Shown in pieces: positions 7,197 through 19,514 of a stretch of DNA of 40,721 bases. Source of the DNA: a virus. Both the position numbers and the translations under genes were made by a program. How positions within the stretch are numbered: the first letter of the stretch is position 1; the number at the start of each line of letters is the position of its first letter. The DNA is taken from IMG/VR virus record IMGVR_UViG_3300020471_000132, positions 1-40,721 of that record. One strand, 5' to 3'. The notes beneath the pieces were generated by a model that saw nothing but the letters and a program-made list of their open reading frames with translations, ran no database searches and was not told the DNA's origin.

Positions 7197-8624
7197 TTAG
7201 TATGTTCCTCCGTCGATGGAACCAAATTCAGGAGTTCCGCCTGAGCCTGCTTGTAGGATTTGTCCTTCTGTGCCTGCTGCTGTAACTTGTAAAGCTCCTG
7301 TGCCGTTACCATAGATAATACCTTTACTTGTAAATGAACCTGCGCCTGTTCCACCATCTGCAACTACTAGATCTGTTATGCCTGTAATTGTTCCGCCTGT
7401 AATAGTAGCACTAGAAGATTCTATGTTTGCTACCAATGTGCCAACAGTATAACCTGTGCCACCTGTGTTTACAGTAGTTGTTGGAGCTGCTTGTAAGTCT
7501 TTAAATAACTTCCATTTACCTGAGTCTGAGGCATCTCTAAAGAAACCTGAGTATAAGTCTTGTGAACCTGAAGTATCATATAAGCCGTAAAGACCAATAT
7601 CAACTGCGTCTGCGCCGTTGTTGCCTGATGCTAATATAATAAGTGGGTCTGCAACACTTAAAGTTGTAGAGTCAACAGTAGTTGTTGTCCCATTAACTGT
7701 TAGATTACCTGAAATAGTTACGTTACTAGGTAATCCTATGTTTATTTTGTTGTCAGAAACAGTTGTTTCAATTTCGTTGGCTGTTCCTTCGAAAGTTAAA
7801 GTGTCTGTTCCTACTGTAACAGTATCATTAGAACCACTATCTGCTGCAATGGTTAATGATGAACTGATACTTGCTGTTGAAGCTGCTGTAATACGTCCTT
7901 GTGCGTCTACAGTTAAAACAGGAATAGCAGTAGAGCCACCATATGACCCTGCTGAAACTGCTGTATCGTCTAGGTCAATAGATAATCCATTGCCTGATGC
8001 AGTTGTTGTAATACCTGTATCACCTGTAATAGCCAAAGTTTCTGCTTGTTCAATAACTCCTGAGCCTGAATCTCCACTAAAGTCTAAGTCAAACGAAGCT
8101 GCTGCTGTAGCATCAACATAAGCCTTAACTGATTGTTGAGAAGGAACTTTAGTAGCACTATTACTTGCCATATTATCTTCATCTACAAATACACCTGAAG
8201 ATGAGAATGTAGATTCGTCTAATAATTTGTGCCAAGCACTAGCATGACTAAAGTATGCTCTACCTGTTCCATGAACGTGTGCAAACATACCGTGATATGT
8301 AGAGGCACTAGGTAAGTCTCCTTCGGCAGAATACATGTTGCCGTATAGAATTTTACCAACAATTATGTCTCCGTTAGAATCTCTTTTTACGAGTTTGCTA
8401 GCAGTGTTTGCGTTGGTTGCTCCATCAATAATGTCTGTATAATACTTACCACCAATCTTTTGTATAACTTCTGAAGACCCAGAGTCTATAGAAGAGATAT
8501 AAAGTATGGCAGAAGCACCGTCACCGGATCTATCCTCAGCATACGCTAATTCGCCTTCAACCAAATCAGAAGCGCCTGGAGCTGCTGAGCCCGTGCTTCT
8601 TTTAATCTGAATAGTTGTTGACAT
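7197..8624 (-). CDS. Tail-fibre protein, paralogue of the 5162-6640 product
   Basis: The 475-aa protein begins MSTTIQIKRSTGSAAPGASD, then LVEGELAYAEDRSGDG, the fibre N-terminal pattern. Around residues 297-320 it has NVTISGNLTVNGTTTTVDST, nearly the same as a block in the 5162-6640 protein. A SQQSVKAYVDATAAA segment and Gly-rich tail (GTGAGSFTSKGIIYGNGTGAL) are typical of long marine-phage fibres. It is low in Cys and aromatic residues. AGGAG precedes the start. It probably forms part of an adsorption fibre; the target is unknown. Confidence 0.75.
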   Translation of the reverse strand: MSTTIQIKRSTGSAAPGASDLVEGELAYAEDRSGDGASAILYISSIDSGSSEVIQKIGGKYYTDIIDGATNANTASKLVKRDSNGDIIVGKILYGNMYSAEGDLPSASTYHGMFAHVHGTGRAYFSHASAWHKLLDESTFSSSGVFVDEDNMASNSATKVPSQQSVKAYVDATAAASFDLDFSGDSGSGVIEQAETLAITGDTGITTTASGNGLSIDLDDTAVSAGSYGGSTAIPVLTVDAQGRITAASTASISSSLTIAADSGSNDTVTVGTDTLTFEGTANEIETTVSDNKINIGLPSNVTISGNLTVNGTTTTVDSTTLSVADPLIILASGNNGADAVDIGLYGLYDTSGSQDLYSGFFRDASDSGKWKLFKDLQAAPTTTVNTGGTGYTVGTLVANIESSSATITGGTITGITDLVVADGGTGAGSFTSKGIIYGNGTGALQVTAAGTEGQILQAGSGGTPEFGSIDGGTY

Positions 8625-8907: not shown

Positions 8908-9240
8908 TTATCTTGTAACTTCTGGTGTTACTGTTATTATACCTTCGACAATTCTAAGCGTTTCTGCAGGACTTGTTGCTGTGATCTCACAATCATATAC
9001 AAATCTTCCTGCTTTTAACGCAGAGGTTTGTGTTGCAGTCAATGATAAAGTAATCTTACCCTCAGCATCTACTTTAGCTGAGGAAAAATCTACAGCTGTT
9101 GTTGCACCATAAGTCTTTCTTATCTGTGCTGCAACGCTATAGTTTGCTAAATCTTTTGCTGTGCCATCATCATTCGTAACGTTTAGATCCATACTGAACG
9201 TTGTTCCCTGATCAATAACTAGATTATTTATTGTTGCCAT
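8908..9240 (-). CDS. Ig-like virion protein (110 aa), first gene of the leftward late operon
   Basis: The 110-aa protein starts MATINNLVIDQGTTFSMDLNV, continues with TNDDGTAKDLANYSVAAQIRKTY and ends with a KAGRFVYDCEITATSPAETLRIVEGIITVTPEVT segment. The pattern is that of small beta-sandwich phage proteins related to baseplate upper-protein N-domains, in which a fibre or decoration is attached. It is the promoter-proximal gene of the leftward block, with a late promoter about 24 bp upstream and an AGAGAG ribosome site. The exact partner is unknown. Confidence 0.65.
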   Translation of the reverse strand: MATINNLVIDQGTTFSMDLNVTNDDGTAKDLANYSVAAQIRKTYGATTAVDFSSAKVDAEGKITLSLTATQTSALKAGRFVYDCEITATSPAETLRIVEGIITVTPEVTR

Positions 9241-9288: not shown

Positions 9289-9939
9289 ATGAAAACGATT
9301 TTGACATTAAAGTATGGACACAAATATGACGCCGGTGATGTGAATTCAATCTACGAACATACAGAAGGCAAGTATAACTATGTTTGTGTAACAGACGACC
9401 CTAAAGGATTAGCAGGAGATATAGGTATTTTGAACCTAGAACATGAACCTGCTGGCAATATGGAAAAGTTAAAATTGTTTCAATTGAACGATTTAGGCAC
9501 TATATTATACCTAGATTTAGATGTAAGAATACAAAAAGACATAGATCACTTGTTTGATTACTATCAAGGCAAGCCTGTTATATGTTATACTTGGTGGAAA
9601 GACAAGGGAGAACGTGAAATGAGTATAGATTTCTTTCCTTATCACGCACAATATCCTTTATCCAATTACAATTCTAGTGTAATACTGTGGGAAGACTGCA
9701 CAGAAATATGGCGTAGATATAATCTAAATCAAGAGTTTTATAATGTTAAGTATCCTTATGGCGACGATACATTCTTGTGGCATGAAGGATTTACATTTCA
9801 ACACTTTCCTGATTATGAGATATATTCTTATATGTTTGCAGGAAGAAAATATAGACCTGAATATACAATAGCACTTTTAAATGGACAAGACGAATACCCG
9901 GAGATAGAAAAAGAATATGATGAACTTTGTATGCATTAA
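9289..9939 (+). CDS. GT-A glycosyltransferase paralogue 1
   Basis: A 216-aa putative glycosyltransferase, the first gene of the rightward operon. It has the family N-terminus (LTLKYGHKYDAGDVNSIYEH, then YVCVTDDPKGL) and an aspartate motif LYLDLDVRI with D76 and D78, the DxD that binds the metal and nucleotide-sugar in GT-A folds. The NSSVILWED and GDDTFLW segments correspond to the acceptor-side motifs of GT8-like enzymes. It is shorter than the next paralogues. AGGAG precedes the ATG. The donor sugar and acceptor are unknown; it could modify virion proteins or host surface glycan. Confidence 0.8.
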   Translation: MKTILTLKYGHKYDAGDVNSIYEHTEGKYNYVCVTDDPKGLAGDIGILNLEHEPAGNMEKLKLFQLNDLGTILYLDLDVRIQKDIDHLFDYYQGKPVICYTWWKDKGEREMSIDFFPYHAQYPLSNYNSSVILWEDCTEIWRRYNLNQEFYNVKYPYGDDTFLWHEGFTFQHFPDYEIYSYMFAGRKYRPEYTIALLNGQDEYPEIEKEYDELCMH

Positions 9940-10687
9940 GTGGGGCGACAAATATGAACCTCACTATGTAAATAATCTCTATAATATGGTTAAGAAAAAC
10001 TATACGAAAAATTTTACGTTTACATGTTTTACAGATGAACCAGAAGGATTAGAATGTGATACAAAACCTATTCCAGATGTAGAACCTTTGCATCCTAAAT
10101 ATTGGTTTGGTAAAGAAGGTTGGTGTTGGGATAGAGCAAAATTTTTAGTATTCAATTCACACAATTGGTTAGGCTATGATGACAAATGGTGTTACTTTGA
10201 TTTAGATGTAATAATACATGGTAATATAAATGACTTGTATGAACTAGCTTTGAAACCTAGACTAATATATTCTAAGTGGGACAATCCTAATAATATACAT
10301 GATAGGTTGTTTATAGATATCAGAGGAACACAATTTAATTCTAGTATGATGTGTTGGAACAAAGATCAATGTGAGGAAATATTCTGGGAAGCAATACAAG
10401 AAGAGCAACAGATATTTAGAACATTTTATAAGGGCACAGATAATTATCATTTTTGGAGACGTAGAAAGTTCTGGACTAACATTCCACACGATTGGGCGTA
10501 TAGTTTTAACAGAGGCAAGTCACATCCTGATGATTTAGAAACACATAAATATAGAAAAGAATGTAAAATTTGTTTGTTTAACGTAGACAATACGCCAAAC
10601 AATAAAGGACAAATTAAAATTGATGAATTACAAAATGAAGAACTTTTGAGAATATGGCATGATAATCCTAGTAGCAAATCTGCTTGA
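9917..10687 (+). CDS. GT-A glycosyltransferase paralogue 2
   Basis: A 256-aa putative glycosyltransferase. It shows FVCIKWGDKYEPHYVNNLY, FTCFTDEPEGL, HPKYWF, CWDRAKFLVFNSHN, the DxD motif YFDLDVII (D95, D97), a GTDNYHFWRR segment and a WAYSFNRGKSHPDDLE C-terminal motif. These all recur in the paralogue at 12361-13173, so the two are clearly related by duplication. The start overlaps the previous gene by 23 bp, and no strong ribosome site is visible, which points to translational coupling. The sugar and acceptor are not determined. Confidence 0.85.
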   Translation: MMNFVCIKWGDKYEPHYVNNLYNMVKKNYTKNFTFTCFTDEPEGLECDTKPIPDVEPLHPKYWFGKEGWCWDRAKFLVFNSHNWLGYDDKWCYFDLDVIIHGNINDLYELALKPRLIYSKWDNPNNIHDRLFIDIRGTQFNSSMMCWNKDQCEEIFWEAIQEEQQIFRTFYKGTDNYHFWRRRKFWTNIPHDWAYSFNRGKSHPDDLETHKYRKECKICLFNVDNTPNNKGQIKIDELQNEELLRIWHDNPSSKSA

Positions 10688-12155
10688 CAACAATTATAGT
10701 CAGACACAAGTCAATGCGTTATATACGCAGGCCAAGAAGCAAATAGAAGACCCTTTCGAGTTCTGGGTATTTACTACTGAAGAGGAATGTATGAATGAAC
10801 AAAAGAACAAAGGATATTTAGACGATATATTGTTCCACGTTCCGAAGTATGGAGAGGATTGGATTGAAATAGATCTAATGGAGAAAACAAAGAAGGGCGA
10901 CACTCTATTACTAATTACGCCTAACACTTTACTTAATAATATATCCGTCATAGAGACTTATAAGACCAACAAGAAGCATAGACTGTCAGACGGTAATCTT
11001 TGTTATTTAATTTTCCATAATAACAAAGTTGGCGAGCTATTAAAAGAATGGGAAGAAAGAGAAGATGAATTATTGTATGAATATGATGCTTTCCATAATT
11101 GGAATATGTTTCCAATATCCGATATGCCTTTCCTACAAGACTCTACATCTGAGTATCCAGAAAAATTAGAAGGCGATATTATTGCATTGCCTGATTGGTA
11201 TGATGACTTTACAGAAGAACAAATAGATATAATGTATAATAAGGAAACAGACTTATATCCTTACTTACCTGAAAGAGTAGAAATATGTTTAACAAGAGAG
11301 GAAACAGAATATCAGGAAGAGGAGTTTCTAGATAAAGAATTAATAAAAGATACATTTAATTCTGAATATCTACTTAAAGCAAAAATGAAAAGAATTAAAT
11401 TTGTTAATGATGTAGGAGACCCTATTTTAAATCCTGAACTTGTAGAAATATCTCATTACTTTATGTCCGATTGGGGCATAGGTGTAGACATGATAACTGA
11501 AGGCAATAAGCACGATATAATGTGGTGGAAAAATATAGGTGTTATGTTCGCAGATTCAGGCAACATAACTTTCAATATAAACACTGGTAATCCAGATAAA
11601 AGAATATTAGAACATGCTACGGCTCTAGTAGAAGTAGGTTGTAGAGTGTTTTGGAGTTATACACATACTAATCAACTAGACAACGATATACAACAAGCAA
11701 AGAAATTATGTAAACAATACAAGTTCTCAGGTTTTGTTTATGATAATAAAGTCCCAGAAGAGAAAACACCTAAGAAGAAAAAGGTGAAACAAGAACTTCC
11801 AGACTATAAACTAATCGAATTGGAGACTCTAGAAACGAGGAAACAAGACGACATATATAAAGAGAGAAAAATAAAATTTTACCCTCACGTTAAATGCGAA
11901 GGTAAAGTAAATAATCAATTTTATTTAGATGCAACGGGTAATGTGTTTCCTAGTAAACATATTGCAGTAACAGTTTGGGCTGCTTTCAATAGTCCAGAAC
12001 ATGTTACAAAAATTTTATATGATTGGGATAAAAACAATATAAATAATTTTTCCTTAGAAGATATTTTTAATAATGATTTTTATAAAGGATACTTCAACAA
12101 TCTATTAAAGTTGAATCCAAAAATAATACACAATGAATTAGGTGGAATATGTTAA
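10659..12155 (+). CDS. Fusion of degenerate glycosyltransferase-like and degenerate radical-SAM/SPASM-like domains
   Basis: A 498-aa protein. Its first 100 residues follow the neighbouring glycosyltransferases (VNALYTQAKKQIEDPFEFWVFTTEEE matches their VNxLY...F-x-F-x-x-F-T-x-E-x-E), but the DxD position reads LLLITPNT (about 83-90), so the metal site is lost. Residues about 203-365 resemble a phage radical-SAM core: DVGDPILNPELVEI (251-264), a TEGNKHDIMWWKNIG segment where TNGS...WW..LG is expected, and NQLDNDIQQAKKLCKQ. The CxxxCxxC cluster motif is missing; only Cys209 remains. Residues about 408-450 resemble a SPASM domain (HVKCEGKVNNQFYLDATGNVFP), again short of cysteines. Overlaps both neighbours. 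It probably has no radical-SAM activity; it may be a scaffold or acceptor-binding partner (inference). Confidence 0.6.
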   Translation: MIILVANLLDNNYSQTQVNALYTQAKKQIEDPFEFWVFTTEEECMNEQKNKGYLDDILFHVPKYGEDWIEIDLMEKTKKGDTLLLITPNTLLNNISVIETYKTNKKHRLSDGNLCYLIFHNNKVGELLKEWEEREDELLYEYDAFHNWNMFPISDMPFLQDSTSEYPEKLEGDIIALPDWYDDFTEEQIDIMYNKETDLYPYLPERVEICLTREETEYQEEEFLDKELIKDTFNSEYLLKAKMKRIKFVNDVGDPILNPELVEISHYFMSDWGIGVDMITEGNKHDIMWWKNIGVMFADSGNITFNINTGNPDKRILEHATALVEVGCRVFWSYTHTNQLDNDIQQAKKLCKQYKFSGFVYDNKVPEEKTPKKKKVKQELPDYKLIELETLETRKQDDIYKERKIKFYPHVKCEGKVNNQFYLDATGNVFPSKHIAVTVWAAFNSPEHVTKILYDWDKNNINNFSLEDIFNNDFYKGYFNNLLKLNPKIIHNELGGIC

Positions 12156-12364
12156 AAATAAATACAGGTATCGTGATAAAAGGCAAATTTGAAAAGCATG
12201 ATACTTACATACAACAAATAAAAGAATCCAATTTTACTACACTAATCGTTGATGCGCCTATAGGCTCTGAATACGATACAAAGTGTATGGAGTTGGTCTC
12301 AAATTTAGCCTCAGAAGGATTTGCATATGGCGAAAAATATGTTATTGCAAGGGGCAGAGAATGA
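12149..12364 (+). CDS. Small protein of unknown function (71 aa)
   Basis: A 71-aa product (MLKINTGIVIKGKFEKHDTY..., ending EKYVIARGRE) that I do not recognise. It is likely real: the ATG overlaps the upstream stop (ATGTTAA), GGTGG lies just upstream, and its stop overlaps the next start as ATGA. It has no signal peptide, membrane segment or cysteine motif. Its place between the fusion gene and the third glycosyltransferase suggests a role in the same process. Confidence 0.6.
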   Translation: MLKINTGIVIKGKFEKHDTYIQQIKESNFTTLIVDAPIGSEYDTKCMELVSNLASEGFAYGEKYVIARGRE

Positions 12365-13173
12365 GAGTAAATATAGTCTGTAGTAAATGGGGAGATAGAT
12401 ATGGTCCACACTTTGTCAACCGTCTTAAAAATATGGCTCGTAGGCATACTGACCCTAAACATGATTTCCATTTTTACTGCTATACAGATGATGCCGAGGG
12501 GCTTGACGAGGACGTTAATGTTATACCATTTCCCGATATCGATACCATACATCCTAAGTATTGGTTCAGGACTGACGACTTTAAGTATGGCATGGCTAGA
12601 TGTTGGGACAGACCTAAAACAATGGTCTTCAATACTCACAATTTTGCAGCAGATAAGCCGACGGGACGCTTTGTCTTCTTTGATCTGGACGTAATAATAC
12701 AGAACAACATAGAGCCTTTACTGACCTACAATATGGAAAGACCAACTAAATTAAGAAGTTGGTGGCAAGACCCGCGCCCGATGAAAAGCAGAAGATTTAA
12801 ATTAGCACATGGAGCATACACTAATGGCAGTTGCCAAGTATGGTCCGACGATCAAGCAGAATGTATATGGGAAGATGTTCTAAAATATAAAGAGAAGATT
12901 TGGTTTACATATACAGATGGAACAGACAATTATCATAGTTGGCGTTGGGGTGATTTCGGAAAGAAACTCTGGGATCATTTCCCAGCAGATTATGCTTACT
13001 CCTACAATAGAGGTAGAAGCTGGGACGACGATGATTTAGAAACTGAAATATACAGAGAAACACCAATACTCTGTGTTTTCAATATAGACTTGTTACCGTT
13101 TGAAGACGCAACAAGAGGACAAGTTAAACAAGAACAATTGGTAGACCCGAGGTTATTAGCACATTGGCAATAA
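12361..13173 (+). CDS. GT-A glycosyltransferase paralogue 3
   Basis: The 270-aa product is the largest intact paralogue. It has VCSKWGDRYGPHFVNRLKNM, YCYTDDAEGL, HPKYWF, CWDRPKTMVFNTHN, the DxD motif FFDLDVII (D108, D110), TDGTDNYHSWRW and YAYSYNRGRSWDDDDLE. The first and last motifs match paralogue 2 closely. I start it at ATG 12361 rather than at upstream codons because the conserved N-terminal strand begins there and the ATG overlaps the previous stop as ATGA, with a GGGGCAGAG ribosome site. The role is a sugar transfer of unknown specificity. Confidence 0.85.
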   Translation: MRVNIVCSKWGDRYGPHFVNRLKNMARRHTDPKHDFHFYCYTDDAEGLDEDVNVIPFPDIDTIHPKYWFRTDDFKYGMARCWDRPKTMVFNTHNFAADKPTGRFVFFDLDVIIQNNIEPLLTYNMERPTKLRSWWQDPRPMKSRRFKLAHGAYTNGSCQVWSDDQAECIWEDVLKYKEKIWFTYTDGTDNYHSWRWGDFGKKLWDHFPADYAYSYNRGRSWDDDDLETEIYRETPILCVFNIDLLPFEDATRGQVKQEQLVDPRLLAHWQ

Positions 13174-13844
13174 ACGTTTATACAGTTAAGTGGGGCAGTA
13201 AATATTCTGCCAAACATGTAAACAAGATATTAGAATCTTGTAAGGAGTTTATGTCTGATGATTTTAACTTTTATTGTTTAACTGAAAATCCAAAAGGATT
13301 AGAGGAAGAAGTAAATGTCATTCCATTACCTAAGAATAATACCTTAGAGAAATGGTGGAACAAAATGTATCTATTTGATGATAATGTTGTAAGACAAAAA
13401 GGAGAAAATTTATTCTTTGACTTAGATATTATTATACAAAAGAACATAGATGATATTGTAAACTTTGACCCTGAAGATTGTTTATGTTTTGGCCAAACAC
13501 ATTGGCACGATTTAGAAACACAAGCAAAAGAAACAGAACATGTTCCTCATAGATATACAGATTTAAATTCTAGTATTCTAAGATGGAATGATAACTTAGA
13601 TAAAGAGAACATAACTCTTTATTTTAAATCACACAAAGAAAAAATATTATGGTATTACAGAGGTATAGATAACTTCTTTATGCACAAAGGAGTAGCAAGA
13701 ATAAAATACTTTCCTATAGGTTGGTTTTATTCTTATAACCAAGGTTATATTTATCCTCATGATGTAGAGAAACATGTCTTTAGACAGATACCATATGTTT
13801 GTTTATTTGATTCAATGGGAAGAAAAGAAGATGTTAAATTTTAA
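13164..13844 (+). CDS. GT-A glycosyltransferase paralogue 4, TTG start
   Basis: A 226-aa member of the same family, with NVYTVKWGSKYSAKHVNKI, FYCLTENPKGLEEEVNVIPLP, FFDLDIIIQKNIDDI (D86 and D88) and a GWFYSYNQGYIYPHDVEKH C-terminal motif. No ATG lies near the conserved N-terminal strand; the only usable start is TTG at 13164, which overlaps the stop of paralogue 3 by 10 bp. The next in-frame ATG (near 13250) would remove the first strand. The C-terminus is followed at once by the methyltransferase gene. Confidence 0.82.
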   Translation: MAINVYTVKWGSKYSAKHVNKILESCKEFMSDDFNFYCLTENPKGLEEEVNVIPLPKNNTLEKWWNKMYLFDDNVVRQKGENLFFDLDIIIQKNIDDIVNFDPEDCLCFGQTHWHDLETQAKETEHVPHRYTDLNSSILRWNDNLDKENITLYFKSHKEKILWYYRGIDNFFMHKGVARIKYFPIGWFYSYNQGYIYPHDVEKHVFRQIPYVCLFDSMGRKEDVKF

Positions 13845-14502
13845 TTTTTTAAATAATATGAGGCATTGGGGCGACGGACTTGCTAAGGTTGAGCATGAAA
13901 TGAAACACAAGCACGACGACTTTAGACAAGCTCTAAATCCTAATACTATGGAAGCTGCTATATGGTTAGTAGAAGAATTACAAAAAGCCTTAAAAGAAAA
14001 CTATATGAAAGAAGAACAATATAATATTCTTGTTCTTAATAGTTGGCTTGGTATTCCTCTCGTTCCTTTATTATGTGAGAATATATCTGTAGGTGAATTA
14101 CACTTGGTAGATATAGATAACGAAGCTTTAGAACTATCTAAAGTATTCAATAAACATTATATAGCAGAAGAATATATCAAAGTTAATCATTGGAATCTAG
14201 ATATTCCATTTGCCTTTGATGAATTAAATCAACTTAAGGTTGATATTGTAATAACTATGGGTGCTGAACAAATGTATCCATTAAAAGATCTTAAGACAGC
14301 TAATAAACATGCTATATTTGCTGTTCAAAATTCTAATGTAATAGAAGAGATGTATGGTATTAATTGTGTAGATAGTGAGAAAGCATTAATAGAAAATGCA
14401 GGACTAAAGAACACATATTATACAGGCAAACAGAAACAATTCTATTATGATTGGAATGGGAAGGTTTACTTTGATAGGTTTATGGCAATTGGCAACAAGT
14501 AG
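13831..14502 (+). CDS. Class I methyltransferase-like protein
   Basis: A 223-aa protein. The segment YNILVLNSWLGIPLVPLL has the position and shape of the SAM-binding motif I, although the Gly-rich loop is degenerate, and LHLVDIDNEALELSK supplies the acidic residue that usually binds the ribose. VDIVITMGAEQMYP fits motif IV. I start at ATG 13831 because the upstream in-frame codons lie inside the previous gene and add no conserved sequence. It is in the glycosyltransferase operon, so it may methylate the sugar or the modified protein. The substrate is unknown. Confidence 0.6.
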   Translation: MLNFNFLNNMRHWGDGLAKVEHEMKHKHDDFRQALNPNTMEAAIWLVEELQKALKENYMKEEQYNILVLNSWLGIPLVPLLCENISVGELHLVDIDNEALELSKVFNKHYIAEEYIKVNHWNLDIPFAFDELNQLKVDIVITMGAEQMYPLKDLKTANKHAIFAVQNSNVIEEMYGINCVDSEKALIENAGLKNTYYTGKQKQFYYDWNGKVYFDRFMAIGNK

Positions 14503-14870: not shown

Positions 14871-15142
14871 GCTAGTTCCTCTAAATGTTCTTCTACTTCT
14901 TCCCATAGTAAGTAGCCTTTAACATCATCATGCCAACCTAATTCAGATTGGCCAATGAATTCTTTGCTACTATCCATAGGAGCAATTTCCCATTTATTTA
15001 GTTGATCACGACCTTTGTATGGGCCTCCATAGGAACCGTCATGGCATATTACACTCATGCGATAACCATTCTTAAATTTATATAACTTCTGAATACCATT
15101 ATGAAATGGCTTCTGAGTCATTGTCATTTGCATTACTTTCAT
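14849..15142 (-). CDS. Unknown small soluble protein (97 aa)
   Basis: A 97-aa product with KLYKFKNGYRMSVICHDGSYGGPYKG near its middle and an acidic C-terminus (LLWEEVEEHLEELACLK). The family looks like the short hypothetical proteins common in T4-like phages. Its ATG overlaps the stop of the phosphatase gene as TAATG, which argues for coupling and for this start even though Met occurs four times in the first eight residues. Function unknown. Confidence 0.65.
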   Translation of the reverse strand: MKVMQMTMTQKPFHNGIQKLYKFKNGYRMSVICHDGSYGGPYKGRDQLNKWEIAPMDSSKEFIGQSELGWHDDVKGYLLWEEVEEHLEELACLKSSD

Positions 15143-15588
15143 TAGAAGTTTCCTGGTTCTACCTGTAAAGTTTTAATTCCAATACTTCTCCACATGTCAA
15201 CGATTTGATTTCTATCGTCTAATGCAAAGTCAATATTGTATCCTAAGATCGAGATATTAGCATTGTAGATATCTCTCTTAACTTCAAAGTCTGGTCTGTA
15301 ATCATCACCTGCTCTCATAAAAATATGATCGTATGGCACGTCATGCTTATCTAACCATTCCCTAGTAAGTTCGTAAACATCAACACCTTTTCTACTATCA
15401 GGTCTACCTGTAGTAATTAAGATCTTGTAACCAACAGTTGAGTATAACCTAACCATATTAATAATATGATGATCAGGTCTATCTTCACCAACCAAATGGT
15501 ATTCATGATGTCCTCTAGTTTGATTTCCATCCACATCAAAGTGATGTGCTAAAGTTCCATCAATGTCTACAATTAAAGCGTCGTTCAT
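15142..15588 (-). CDS. Polynucleotide 3'-phosphatase-like HAD protein
   Basis: A 148-aa protein like the C-terminal 3'-phosphatase domain of T4 Pnkp (PseT). It has VDIDGTLAHH (D8 and D10, HAD motif I with nucleophile and acid), ILITTGRPDSRK (motif II), a LTREWLDKHDVPYDHIFMRAG segment where T4 has MTRKWVED, VKRDIY, and FALDDRNQIVDMWRSIGIKTLQV (motif IV), very close to the T4 AIDDRTQVVEMWRRIGV. No kinase domain is present. Its likely reaction is removal of 3'-phosphates from RNA or DNA ends; whether it repairs cut tRNA, as in T4, is an inference. The ATG overlaps the upstream stop as TAATG. Confidence 0.85.
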   Translation of the reverse strand: MNDALIVDIDGTLAHHFDVDGNQTRGHHEYHLVGEDRPDHHIINMVRLYSTVGYKILITTGRPDSRKGVDVYELTREWLDKHDVPYDHIFMRAGDDYRPDFEVKRDIYNANISILGYNIDFALDDRNQIVDMWRSIGIKTLQVEPGNF

Positions 15589-16128: not shown

Positions 16129-16794
16129 TTAGGAGAGATGTTCGGCAGATTCGCCTGAAATATCTTCAACCATGTTGCGCCAAATGTCCAAATGAGGCAC
16201 TACAAAGCCAAATGTGAGCCTAGGTTCATATGTTCCTGCACAATGATAGTAGACTTTTTCTGGCTCTCTGCCCCTACCATAATAACCTACTTTACAACAC
16301 CAACCACCAGGGTCTTGCATATGAACTACTTCATTGACAGATCTATCAGTATTAGGTTTTCTATACTTAAAAAATCCATCACCGTTTTCTGTGTAGGATA
16401 ATAGTATATTGTAACCATGCGCGTTCCAATTATTATGCCAACCCATAAAACCACCTTGAGGATAGTAAACATGAACTGCTTGAAATGCTGCTCCTGTAAA
16501 TGTTATTAACTTATCTGATATTTCTTCGTAAGGCTCCATAAACGGGTCTTCATGTTTTCTCATATTCAAATCATAAGCAAAAGTAACTTCAGGATAACCT
16601 TCATGTTCTCCATCTTTATCTACTATTTCTTTTAGATACTCAGGAGCACAATAATATTCTAAGTCAAATTGTTTAGGATAATTAGGGTGATCGTATGCTA
16701 GTTTGTCTAAAGGTTTAAGATCTTGTTTGAAAAACCAATCAGAGTAGGGAGTTAATATATCTAGTAGTTCTTGTGATATTTCGGTTTTAATCAT
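16129..16794 (-). CDS. 2OG-Fe(II) oxygenase-like protein with H-x-N
   Basis: A 221-aa protein of a type often seen in marine phages. The segment YYPQGGFMGWHNNWN starts the jelly-roll-like core; H120 and the distal pair H184 (YYHCAGTYEPR) and R192 are spaced like the iron His and 2-oxoglutarate Arg of this superfamily. The expected carboxylate of HxD is N122 here. The enzyme may be inactive as a hydroxylase, may use another ligand, or may belong to a variant family. The gene has no clear Shine-Dalgarno. A pair of 9-bp repeats lies just upstream of it. Likely role: modification of a protein, nucleic acid or small molecule, not known which. Confidence 0.6.
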   Translation of the reverse strand: MIKTEISQELLDILTPYSDWFFKQDLKPLDKLAYDHPNYPKQFDLEYYCAPEYLKEIVDKDGEHEGYPEVTFAYDLNMRKHEDPFMEPYEEISDKLITFTGAAFQAVHVYYPQGGFMGWHNNWNAHGYNILLSYTENGDGFFKYRKPNTDRSVNEVVHMQDPGGWCCKVGYYGRGREPEKVYYHCAGTYEPRLTFGFVVPHLDIWRNMVEDISGESAEHLS

Positions 16795-16874: not shown

Positions 16875-16967
16875 ATGAAAAAGGTATGGAAAGATTTTCA
16901 TAAGATAATGAAATCTGGTAGACTCCATAAAGTCTGTAAAGCAGCTGGAGTCTCAAATCAAGATTGA
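16875..16967 (+). CDS. Putative tiny ORF (30 aa), divergent from oxygenase
   Basis: The plus strand has an ATG 7 bp after AGAGG, reading 30 codons of a basic peptide (MKKVWKDFHKIMKSG..., ending KVCKAAGVSNQD). It overlaps the 3' end of the minus-strand glycosyltransferase by 10 bp. An AT-rich candidate -10 region (TATATATAATATAT, 16841-16854) lies in front. It is short, so this is a plausible small gene only; a KVCKAAGVS-type stretch resembles the start of a helix-turn-helix, which is weak evidence. Confidence 0.35.
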   Translation: MKKVWKDFHKIMKSGRLHKVCKAAGVSNQD

Positions 16968-17728
16968 TTTTTACTATGAATCTCAAATTCGGGAATCGTG
17001 TAATGATACATTACACGTTCCTGATCACCAAGTTCTTCCTCTTGATACCCATTAACAAAATTCCATCTACAATGCAAATCCTCAGCCCACTTTACTCCGT
17101 GGTCTGAATAATTAAGTAATTTCCACATAGTAAAAGTATCCCACTTTCTTACAGAATCAGGATAGTTTCCTATATCATTTTTTCCATCTTGTTGATATAA
17201 AAATTCTCCATACCAACTATTCATTAATTTTAATGTTTGCTTATTGTTTCTGTATAAGAACATACCACAATGAGCTGTCATTTCTTCTGTGTTTGTTAGT
17301 TTAGTAATCTTAGCATTGTAAGGTCTTATTTTTGTAAATATTAGATCTTTATCTTTAGGAAGTTGTTTGAATATATCTTTTACATCTTCGTGTTCACAAA
17401 CCATGTCAGCATCTAAATAACAAGTTATGCCTTTGTATGGTGTTTGTGCTAATGCCCATAGTTTAGCTCTTATATGATCTGGGACTTCCCATGTTACAAT
17501 CCAATCTGCATGGTTCCAATCAGTAGGTTTTACCCACTCTTCTTTAGAACAATAAACAGTTACATGGGCGTCAGGGTCAAATAGTTTTATAGACTCTGCA
17601 CATTCTATTGCTTTTCTATAAAATATTTCGTAAACAGAACCTACTAATAGGAATCCGTTTTTAGGAAATGTTATGTCTATGTCTGGATGACCTGCCCAAT
17701 CAGGTCTACTTGATTTTTCCTTCGTCAC
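16958..17728 (-). CDS. GT-A glycosyltransferase with DAD motif, GTG start
   Basis: A 256-aa protein with FLLVGSVYEIFYRKAIECAESIKLFDPDAHVTVYCS, KLWALAQTPYKGITCYLDADMVCEHEDV (D106-A-D108, DxD), HCGMFLYRNNKQTLKLMNSWYGEF and a W..CRWNFVNGY segment near the end. The core is a GT8/glycogenin-like GT-A domain but of a different branch from the plus-strand paralogues. The start is GTG at 17728, six nt after GGAGA and overlapping the upstream gene by 23 bp. It lies next to the oxygenase and fibre genes, so it may work on the same surface or virion target. Confidence 0.78.
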   Translation of the reverse strand: MTKEKSSRPDWAGHPDIDITFPKNGFLLVGSVYEIFYRKAIECAESIKLFDPDAHVTVYCSKEEWVKPTDWNHADWIVTWEVPDHIRAKLWALAQTPYKGITCYLDADMVCEHEDVKDIFKQLPKDKDLIFTKIRPYNAKITKLTNTEEMTAHCGMFLYRNNKQTLKLMNSWYGEFLYQQDGKNDIGNYPDSVRKWDTFTMWKLLNYSDHGVKWAEDLHCRWNFVNGYQEEELGDQERVMYHYTIPEFEIHSKNQS

Positions 17729-18230: not shown

Positions 18231-19514
18231 TTAGGCAGTTCTTAACCACAGTTTTACCGAAGAAACATCTTCTTCAGAAGTTAATATTGTATCTCCTGCG
18301 TATGTTCCTGAGTAGTAACCTGTGTATGTTCCGGAATATGTTCCTGCGTATGATGAAGTTCCTGTGTAGTAACCTGTGTAACTACCTGAGTAAGCTCCAG
18401 AATATGTGCCTGAATAGTTTTTAGCTCCTGTGTAATATCCTGTATAAGTGCCAGTATAAGTTCCTGCGTATGTGCCTGAGAAGAAGCCTCCGGAATAACC
18501 TGAGAAGAATCTTTGGTAACCGCCCGTGTAATTGCCAGTGTAATTACCTGTATAACTTCCTGCGTATGCCGAAGTTCCTGTATATGCTCCTGTATAACTC
18601 CCTGTGTAACTGCCTGAATATGCTCCTGCATAAACTTTAGCTCCTGTATAACCACCTGTATATGTGCCTGAGTATGAGCCTGCATAAGCTCCTGTATAGT
18701 TTTGAGAACCTACTTCTTGTCTTGTGTCCTTAAACTCATCTCCCATCTGTGTCCATGTTCCTGTTTCGGAAGGAGCGGAAGATTGTAATTTATAAGTTCC
18801 AACACCTTGTGTTGTTGCAAAGTTTTCTACAATTCTATTTCTAAAGTTAGGAACTATTTGTTCCATTTCAGCAACACTCATTTCTTTTATACCGTTAGAG
18901 CCTTCTACTTTGCAGGGCTTGTAGTTGTCTACGGCAGAACTTGTAGCTGCTGTCTTTTGCCAAATATATTTTGTATCTTCTGTTTCGTCTACCTGTGTAT
19001 CAACTAATGTATATCTAGCAGTCCATGTGCCTCCACTTGGTGCACTTGTAGATAAATGATATTGTCCTACAGTATAGTTTCCTAAACCTACCATATCTGC
19101 TATTACTTTATCAATAATATCTGTATCAAGTTCTGCATCTGTAAATTCGTTTATACCAACATTACCTGAGGTTTCGTAACCTACCATTCTGTTAGTAATA
19201 CTTTCTGATGCTGCTGCTGTTACTTGTTTAGCTGTGTAAACGTTTACATTGGAAGTTGCACCGTCTGTTGGGTGAGTTCCAATTGCGTCGTCTCTTTTTG
19301 TGTCTGTTATTGAACCAATCGTAGTTCCTGCACCGGAGCCATCAGTAGTAACATTCAGTTCTGCTGTTCCTGACCCGTTAGTGTTATCTGCAAAATCTTT
19401 TGTAATGATTGCTGATATATATTGTTCTATTTCGCTATCCGTCATCTCCTGCAAACCTTGAAAGTTTGAAGAGCTAACCGGGTATGCCGATGCTTTTATA
19501 CGAAGTGGTCTCAT
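18231..19514 (-). CDS. Adhesin-like fibre with N-terminal triplicate and Tyr-x-Gly repeats
   Basis: A 427-aa protein. The first 230 residues contain three copies of a GLQEMTDSEIEQYI-type helix (about 20-33, 120-133 and 209-222), each followed by a beta-rich segment (TSAPSGGTWT, SSAPSETGTWT). Residues 273-407 are almost entirely [YF]-[STA]-G-x tetrads with no charged residues except two Lys of AK insertions, an Arg, and a Gln-Arg. The tetrads group in 22-residue blocks (five tetrads plus AKx or TSx). It ends in a short charged tail. This is a repeat-rich adhesin design; it is likely a tail-fibre tip or decoration, with the receptor unknown. It is adjacent to other fibre genes. Confidence 0.75.
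   Translation of the reverse strand: MRPLRIKASAYPVSSSNFQGLQEMTDSEIEQYISAIITKDFADNTNGSGTAELNVTTDGSGAGTTIGSITDTKRDDAIGTHPTDGATSNVNVYTAKQVTAAASESITNRMVGYETSGNVGINEFTDAELDTDIIDKVIADMVGLGNYTVGQYHLSTSAPSGGTWTARYTLVDTQVDETEDTKYIWQKTAATSSAVDNYKPCKVEGSNGIKEMSVAEMEQIVPNFRNRIVENFATTQGVGTYKLQSSAPSETGTWTQMGDEFKDTRQEVGSQNYTGAYAGSYSGTYTGGYTGAKVYAGAYSGSYTGSYTGAYTGTSAYAGSYTGNYTGNYTGGYQRFFSGYSGGFFSGTYAGTYTGTYTGYYTGAKNYSGTYSGAYSGSYTGYYTGTSSYAGTYSGTYTGYYSGTYAGDTILTSEEDVSSVKLWLRTA
18294..18698. repeat. 66-bp superrepeat made of 12-bp units in the YxG fibre gene
   Basis: The DNA encoding residues 273-407 of the fibre repeats a 12-bp unit (tetrad Tyr-x-Gly-x). Five units plus two codons make a 66-bp block; four full blocks are clear (22 residues each), alternating AKV/AKN and TSA/TSS at the block ends, with a less regular central block containing Phe. 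Because of the repeats, another reading frame also stays open across this region. Confidence 0.85.

Follow-up and report, generated by a model that had tools for sequence, protein, structure and literature searches.

The window, the whole 40,721-base stretch of virus record IMGVR_UViG_3300020471_000132, carries terminase, tail and baseplate genes, and the baseplate matches read as those of a T4-like phage. Minus-strand structural genes flank a plus-strand block (9289-14502), which tail-fibre genes adjoin (7197-8624, and 8908-9240, which matches 'tail fiber protein assembly'). The block holds the gene considered here, a predicted fusion of a glycosyltransferase (GT) domain of the GT-A fold with a protein of the radical S-adenosylmethionine (SAM) type. 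A sequence-only reading had described an intact 498-codon gene whose N-terminal domain follows its GT-A neighbours with ITPN in place of the DxD motif, and whose second half is radical-SAM-like, ends like a SPASM domain and lacks CxxxCxxC. Each of these descriptions holds in the comparisons below. Structural matching of a predicted model and the ratio of nonsynonymous to synonymous substitution rates (dN/dS) over homologues, which that reading had named as checks, both came out in its favour. The gene and its parts are as follows.

10659..12155, plus strand: putative double pseudoenzyme gene, an intact open reading frame (ORF) with an ATG start, 498 amino acids
10659..11270, plus strand: predicted GT8-like GT-A domain, residues 1-204 (AlphaFold2, AF2, and VIA)
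10917..10925, plus strand: T87-P88-N89 where DxD is expected, aligned to the DLD of the neighbouring GT1 to GT4 and invariant in 54/54 family members
11271..11765, plus strand: predicted partial barrel of radical-SAM type, residues 205-369 (AF2, VIA)
11292..11324, plus strand: residues 212-222, apparently where the [4Fe-4S] cluster loop was excised; homologues have CxxxCxxC here
11418..11420, plus strand: D254, the acid of a G-D/E-P motif, D or E in 54/54 members
11871..12152, plus strand: SPASM-like end, residues 405-498, with C413, S432 (C in most relatives), H491, G495 and C498

In sequence searches, the window protein matched no family in Pfam or PHROGs, including phrog_1962, Pfam Radical_SAM and Pfam SPASM. 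Nothing better than E 1.2 was found among the Protein Data Bank (PDB) sequences, and the two weak NCBIfam matches are both far below their cut-offs. A tblastn search of 50,697 phage records returned no relative at E<=0.1. In IMG/VR, the single protein retrieved 36 loci and an alignment query 85, of which 80 were kept; two deeper groups of the family were reached through a search with GT3. The resulting 54 members share 40-100% identity with the window. This set leaves out the frameshifted copy L033/L104 (also absent from alignments A1 and A2), cut copies and duplicates; two of the 58 distinct family ORFs were dropped at 400 amino acids or fewer.

The second half of the protein is predicted to fold as a radical-SAM barrel. 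AF2 yields alternating strands and helices, with block values of the predicted local distance difference test (pLDDT) of 69-90 over residues 221-360. With model range 201-369, VIA matches viperin (6b4c; Z 12.8, root-mean-square deviation (rmsd) 2.8, 159 aligned), NifB (Z 12.6), SuiB (12.5) and PqqE (12.3). Foldseek with the full model places radical-SAM proteins in all of its first 15 rows (best E 8e-5, SuiB); methylenetetrahydrofolate reductase is also present from rank 16, and VIA ranks radical-SAM proteins first. The model thus has the partial (beta/alpha)6 TIM-type barrel of the radical SAM superfamily.

Profile comparison points the same way. A profile of the C-terminal half (C-half) from 15 members aligns with 32 cluster-bearing phage relatives over 268 columns covering barrel and SPASM part (probability 99.9, E 7.1e-32). 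Seven of ten such relatives checked in Pfam exceed the Radical_SAM cut-off and four the SPASM cut-off. The kinship is to one subfamily, since 16 of 17 cluster-bearing ORFs from three long records gave no match to the C-half (probability <=2.4). One relative, L115:8961-10229, shares a 170-kb contig with a family member, keeps the cysteine motifs and aligns with the C-half at E 7.9e-10 over 240 columns (hhalign); it is itself weak in Pfam (Radical_SAM 15.5 bits, E 0.021, cut-off 29.5; no SPASM match). Within the family, 8/40 members match Radical_SAM (PF04055) at E<=0.1, none of them above the curated cut-off (best L039, E 2.6e-5, 24.9 bits vs 29.5), and 3/40 match phrog_21308, a radical SAM domain-containing protein (best E 6e-10).

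What separates the family from these homologues is the cluster loop. CxxxCxxC is present in 68 of 73 distinct homologous ORFs, the other five being cut at the edge of the stretch, and in 0/54 family members within residues 1-400, where the site has shrunk to 1-11 residues with no Cys motif. Judged by these alignments, the loop is excised as a whole, not mutated, and its loss appears older than the known family because no member found has it. The sequence-only reading had called both active sites eroded: the loss of motifs stands, the erosion does not, since the loop is gone entire in every member. Nor does its 'Cys 209' survive as a remaining cluster ligand; counted from 1, the residue is C210, which lies in the first strand of the barrel, and its column is E/C/N/D (35/11/6/2 of 54 members), mostly E, so that it was rejected as a relic of the cluster. 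Reductive SAM cleavage is expected to be absent in a protein that lacks the cluster. Moreover, the 73 homologues have no GT-A half, and no fusion of GT-A with an intact-cluster radical-SAM part occurs among 888 ORFs, in which a profile of the N-terminal half (N-half) matched only a known member and a Mosig glycosyltransferase. Phage radical-SAM/SPASM proteins such as L115:8961-10229 and phrog_21308 resemble the family by homology of barrel and SPASM part, whereas they carry CxxxCxxC and no GT-A half. The family has the GT-A half, lacks the loop and forms its own branch. The available part of one article describes radical-SAM enzymes as all binding a cluster (PMC10470005). Our literature search by title and start of abstract, with subscription journals mostly outside its scope, found no description of a cluster-less radical-SAM protein of this kind.

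The N-half resembles glycosyltransferases in predicted structure. AF2 with the N-half alone (45 rows, two from the deep lineages) gives pLDDT 86.6 and a predicted template modelling score (pTM) of 0.84; in the full-length model with 20 rows it was unresolved (mean pLDDT 51.3). In VIA, glycosyltransferases fill the first 44 of 50 rows, with TarI from rank 45, and the best match is the GT8 enzyme 3tzt (Z 10.7, rmsd 4.9, 188 aligned). In Foldseek, two rows of the nucleotidyltransferase RmlA hold the best E-values and GT8 enzymes come after. Compared with solved structures, the predicted model thus has the GT-A fold. At residues 86-89 it reads ITPN, so that the DxD motif for metal and nucleotide sugar is absent and TPN stands in its place in every member. 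Against a pooled profile of GT1 to GT4, hhalign sets TPN under DLD (E 8.4e-6, probability 83.5); single profiles match weakly (E 1.4e-4 with GT4, 0.0024 to 0.043 with the others). The claim of kinship with the neighbouring glycosyltransferases is therefore based on the pooled profile together with the fold. The N-half has 204 residues against 216-270 in its neighbours, and the local alignment spans about the first half only; 45 of the 204 residues, TPN included, are invariant over the 54 members. Relative to GT8 enzymes (glycogenin, LgtC, 3tzt) and the phage glycosyltransferases of phrog_1962, the family thus shares the GT-A fold over residues 1-204 and sequence similarity to phrog_1962-type neighbours, and differs by TPN for DxD, a shorter domain and the fusion to a barrel. 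Some GT-A enzymes function without DxD. For this reason the N-half is likely, rather than provenly, a dead glycosyltransferase, the absence of DxD being what the sequences display.

At its C-terminal end, the protein can be aligned to the SPASM part of the relatives, and 33/40 members match Pfam SPASM (PF13186) at E<=0.1 (best E 0.0018; below the curated cut-off in the three members scored). AF2 gives this end low confidence in the sole model that spans it. Of five auxiliary-cluster Cys ligands the window keeps C413 and C498 only and thus lacks the full set. Two deep lineages, L259 and L281 (44% and 40% identity to the window, 58% to each other), are likewise without the barrel cluster, yet have the full SPASM Cys set of C, PC and CxxxCxxC; their last residues read CNKKCGGC or CKLKCGAC, and FPC is kept as well. 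The remaining 52 members have H (W in one)-xxx-G/D/E-xx-C as their C-terminal motif. Of the 54 members, 46 have C at position 432, seven have S and one has F; in a 57-row set, S432 occurs in the window, L001, L002, L003, L004, L037 and L038. The invariant last Cys was set aside as proof of metal binding, since the start codon of the following gene overlaps it in the main clade and so fixes it at the DNA level as well.

A tree was built from 19 rows of the family together with 19 relatives and drawn with its root at the midpoint. The family forms one side of a branch with support 100/100, and the two deep rows separate from the remaining 17 with support 100/97. If the relatives are taken as outgroup, the losses would most simply run as follows: the barrel cluster and DxD before the known family diverged, then auxiliary ligands in the main clade, and finally C432 in the clade of the window.

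The gene is under purifying selection and not decaying. Across 697 pairs from the main clade, dN/dS has a median of 0.20. These are simple Nei-Gojobori pairwise values from pairs that are not independent, and the set excludes both deep lineages and any pair whose dS falls outside 0.1-1.5. Values are 0.065-0.098 between the window and five near relatives, 0.19 against L039 and 0.17 against L040. By part, dN/dS is 0.21 in the N-half, 0.28 in the barrel and 0.126 in the SPASM-like end, which is under the strongest constraint. The barrel is the least conserved part, with 14 of 158 residues invariant. The protein is therefore kept by selection, with the barrel as its freest part. The frame is open without stops in 30/31 loci read. 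The sole copy with internal stops, on one contig (L033/L104/L267), is frameshifted and split across two ORFs. A decaying gene, or an artefact of assembly or translation, could draw on that contig, and is highly improbable in view of the other open frames, the dN/dS and the retained operon position; decay of this single gene was rejected on these grounds, the operon counts being those from GT3-fetched loci given below.

The genes around the pseudoenzyme gene form a constant operon.

9289..9939, plus strand: GT1, DLDV motif, phrog_1962 glycosyltransferase (E 1.5e-9)
9917..10687, plus strand: GT2, DLDV motif, phrog_1962 (E 0.00095), overlapping GT1 and the pseudoenzyme gene
12149..12364, plus strand: SMALL, an ORF of 71 amino acids; its ATG start codon overlaps the pseudoenzyme gene at the final two codons and the stop
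12361..13173, plus strand: GT3, DLDV motif, with profile kinship to GT2 (E 2.5e-60)
13164..13844, plus strand: GT4, DLDI motif, phrog_1962 (E 3.5e-10)
13774..14502, plus strand: conserved ORF after GT4, labelled MT, with a weak Spermine_synth match (E 0.013, below cut-off)

All four GTs of the operon retain DxD in the window, where gene overlaps from GT1 to GT4 measure 4 to 29 bases. For GT3 the ATG at 12361 was chosen as start; the listed ORF begins at 12283 and matches phrog_1962 at E 0.053, and with the chosen start there is no match at 0.01. In the GT3 alignment (A3), the 13 rows besides the window share 84-98% identity with it. Mean column identity is 91% in GT3 (14 rows) vs 81% in GT2 (14 rows), and 70% in the pseudoenzyme (40 rows).

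The order GT1-GT2-pseudoenzyme-SMALL-GT3-GT4 is kept in 105 loci as far as each extends, in a set that counts several contigs twice and does not display intervening ORFs of other kinds. The SMALL ATG overlaps the pseudoenzyme stop at -7 in the window and in all 53 relatives with the stop inside the locus; a profile search did not find SMALL in the group of L257, L258 and L259. A first count of co-occurrence gave 46/58 at a 600-nucleotide limit and 57/57 at 2.5 kb, and each of six misses inspected at 600 nucleotides has an additional ORF between. Because the 57-locus set included loci fetched by the pseudoenzyme itself, the recount was restricted to loci fetched by GT3. Here the pseudoenzyme lies within 2.5 kb upstream of GT3 in all 55 distinct genes with at least 1.5 kb upstream (60 counted), in a scan of the best 80 of 235 GT3 relatives, beyond which distant GT3-like genes without a pseudoenzyme may lie. 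GT1, GT2 and the pseudoenzyme occur together in 34/34 GT3-fetched loci with at least 4.2 kb upstream, and GT4 too in 33. The locus L260 is from a metagenome-assembled genome labelled Flavobacteriales; its contig of 11,980 bases carries the operon from GT1 into GT4 and is possibly phage DNA binned with a bacterium. In L055, L052, L010, L319, L065 and L063, an additional ORF between SMALL and GT3 has the motif RHRSFSFQE...SQRY, which we take to recall the flavin-dependent thymidylate synthase ThyX.

Taken together, the predicted fold, profile homology, purifying selection and constant operon make a selected double pseudoenzyme of GT-A and radical-SAM descent well supported. The sequence-only reading had proposed as much: selection and the radical-SAM part stand, and the dead GT part is likely only. 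The role that it gave as an example, substrate presentation to the active GTs, is plausible and remains the favoured idea. As to function, we lean with moderate confidence towards a dedicated subunit of a glycosylation complex in the phage: itself non-catalytic, it would dock the active GTs and hold their acceptor; the subunit role is supported by context, and the holding of an acceptor is an inference by analogy. The ancestor would have been a GT8-like GT-A domain fused to a phage radical-SAM/SPASM protein, in which, by comparison, DxD became TPN and the [4Fe-4S] loop was cut out in every member found. Docking onto its active glycosyltransferase relatives might then fall to the GT-A-like half, and an acceptor polypeptide might be held by the barrel and SPASM-like end. 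Many members of the radical-SAM/SPASM class act on peptides. A possible model is provided by GtfA/GtfB of serine-rich repeat adhesins: according to the available part of the article, GtfB serves as a chaperone for the acceptor and interacts with it (PMC6973325). On this partial account, the likeness is one of a GT-pair partner that binds the acceptor beside an active GT, a works-like analogy for which we claim no homology. It is plausible that the pseudoenzyme binds acceptor and active GT as GtfB does, the operon linkage being the part of this that is known. We know of no radical-SAM half in GtfB.

Several observations weigh against a non-catalytic subunit. The neighbours are held more tightly (dN/dS 0.131 in GT1, 0.149 in GT2, 0.07 in GT3 and 0.092 in GT4, in a comparison that took the first 60 genes), which fits a loosely held accessory; SMALL, at 0.399, is looser than the pseudoenzyme. 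The sequence link of the N-half to the neighbouring GTs is modest, and loss of DxD is by itself no proof of a dead GT-A domain. Accordingly, the GT-A half might still be an active, metal-independent glycosyltransferase with TPN for DxD and the cluster-less barrel as its acceptor-binding module. Its confidently predicted GT8-like fold and its many invariant residues, TPN among them, argue for this, whereas all four operon neighbours in the window retain DxD and the domain is short, with an alignment that reaches about half of it. We regard continued activity as unlikely, although it has a real share of the probability. The acidic residue at 254 is also retained throughout the family, in a motif that presumably sits where radical-SAM enzymes have GGE, and may mark a residual ligand site in the barrel. 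The barrel, whose fold is kept in the prediction, could thus be reused, with no cluster, to bind or sense a ligand such as SAM or a nucleotide sugar, regulating the GTs rather than presenting an acceptor. A strongly constrained ligand site would look different from this least conserved part of the protein, and such a sensor seems clearly improbable.

The full SPASM Cys set in the two deep lineages hints at a surviving metal-dependent role. The SPASM-like end might carry an auxiliary Fe-S cluster or other metal and pass electrons to an intact radical-SAM enzyme of the phage, a role that the main clade would be losing. For PapB, the available part of PMC10470005 reports that electrons pass between radical-SAM proteins, and records G001 and G003 show 10 and 8 PF04055 matches at E<=0.1. 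However, 13 of 17 records, mostly fragments, have no PF04055 match, the one in G006 comes from the family member itself and three records have others; the window has just two of the ligands, and C498 in the main clade is tied to the overlapping start codon. Electron transfer is therefore very unlikely. Returning to the non-catalytic subunit, a more specific version remains doubtful: in marine T4-like phages, a domesticated radical-SAM/SPASM enzyme with its cluster loop cut out would be the subunit that holds the acceptor in a machinery for protein glycosylation, whose target would be a virion protein with Tyr/Ser/Thr-Gly repeats; the deep lineages would represent an intermediate that has only auxiliary cluster ligands. 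In any case, a cluster-less family of this considerable size, kept by selection and preserving the order of ligand loss, would show how such an enzyme can become something else, probably a scaffold, and the fixed GT operon would allow a direct test, in a small system, of what a glycosylation pseudoenzyme does.

The speculative acceptor in the window is the following ORF.

18231..19514, minus strand: Tyr/Ser/Thr-Gly repeat protein with repeats YTG, YSG and YAG

It has no PHROGs match at 0.001 and one N-terminal relative among the phage records, in phage C48C1. All nine distinct GT3 loci that extend 6.8 kb or more downstream have a repeat ORF, deep lineages included, a co-occurrence that could stem from shared phage ancestry alone. 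The acceptor could also be a glycan. Host-recognition regions of pelagimyophages have GT8-type enzymes beside tail-fibre genes and radical-SAM cassettes, and modification of the host O-chain was proposed for these GT8 genes (PMC7029224, in the available text). The locus resembles them as a kind of phage region and differs in that the same part of that text describes neither a fusion nor a cluster-less radical-SAM protein.

Radical-SAM genes run consecutively in two long family records, five in L115 (G001:C1:9000-22000) and six in L120 (G003:C1:55000-69000). On the minus strand of the window, 15142-15588 encodes a PNKP-type HAD phosphatase (Pfam E 7e-42). The ORF at 16129-16794 (minus), without a Pfam or PHROG match, presumably resembles a 2-oxoglutarate (2OG)-Fe(II) oxygenase, and the ORF at 16958-17728 (minus), with no PHROG match better than 0.097, is one that we take to be a further glycosyltransferase-like protein with a DAD motif.

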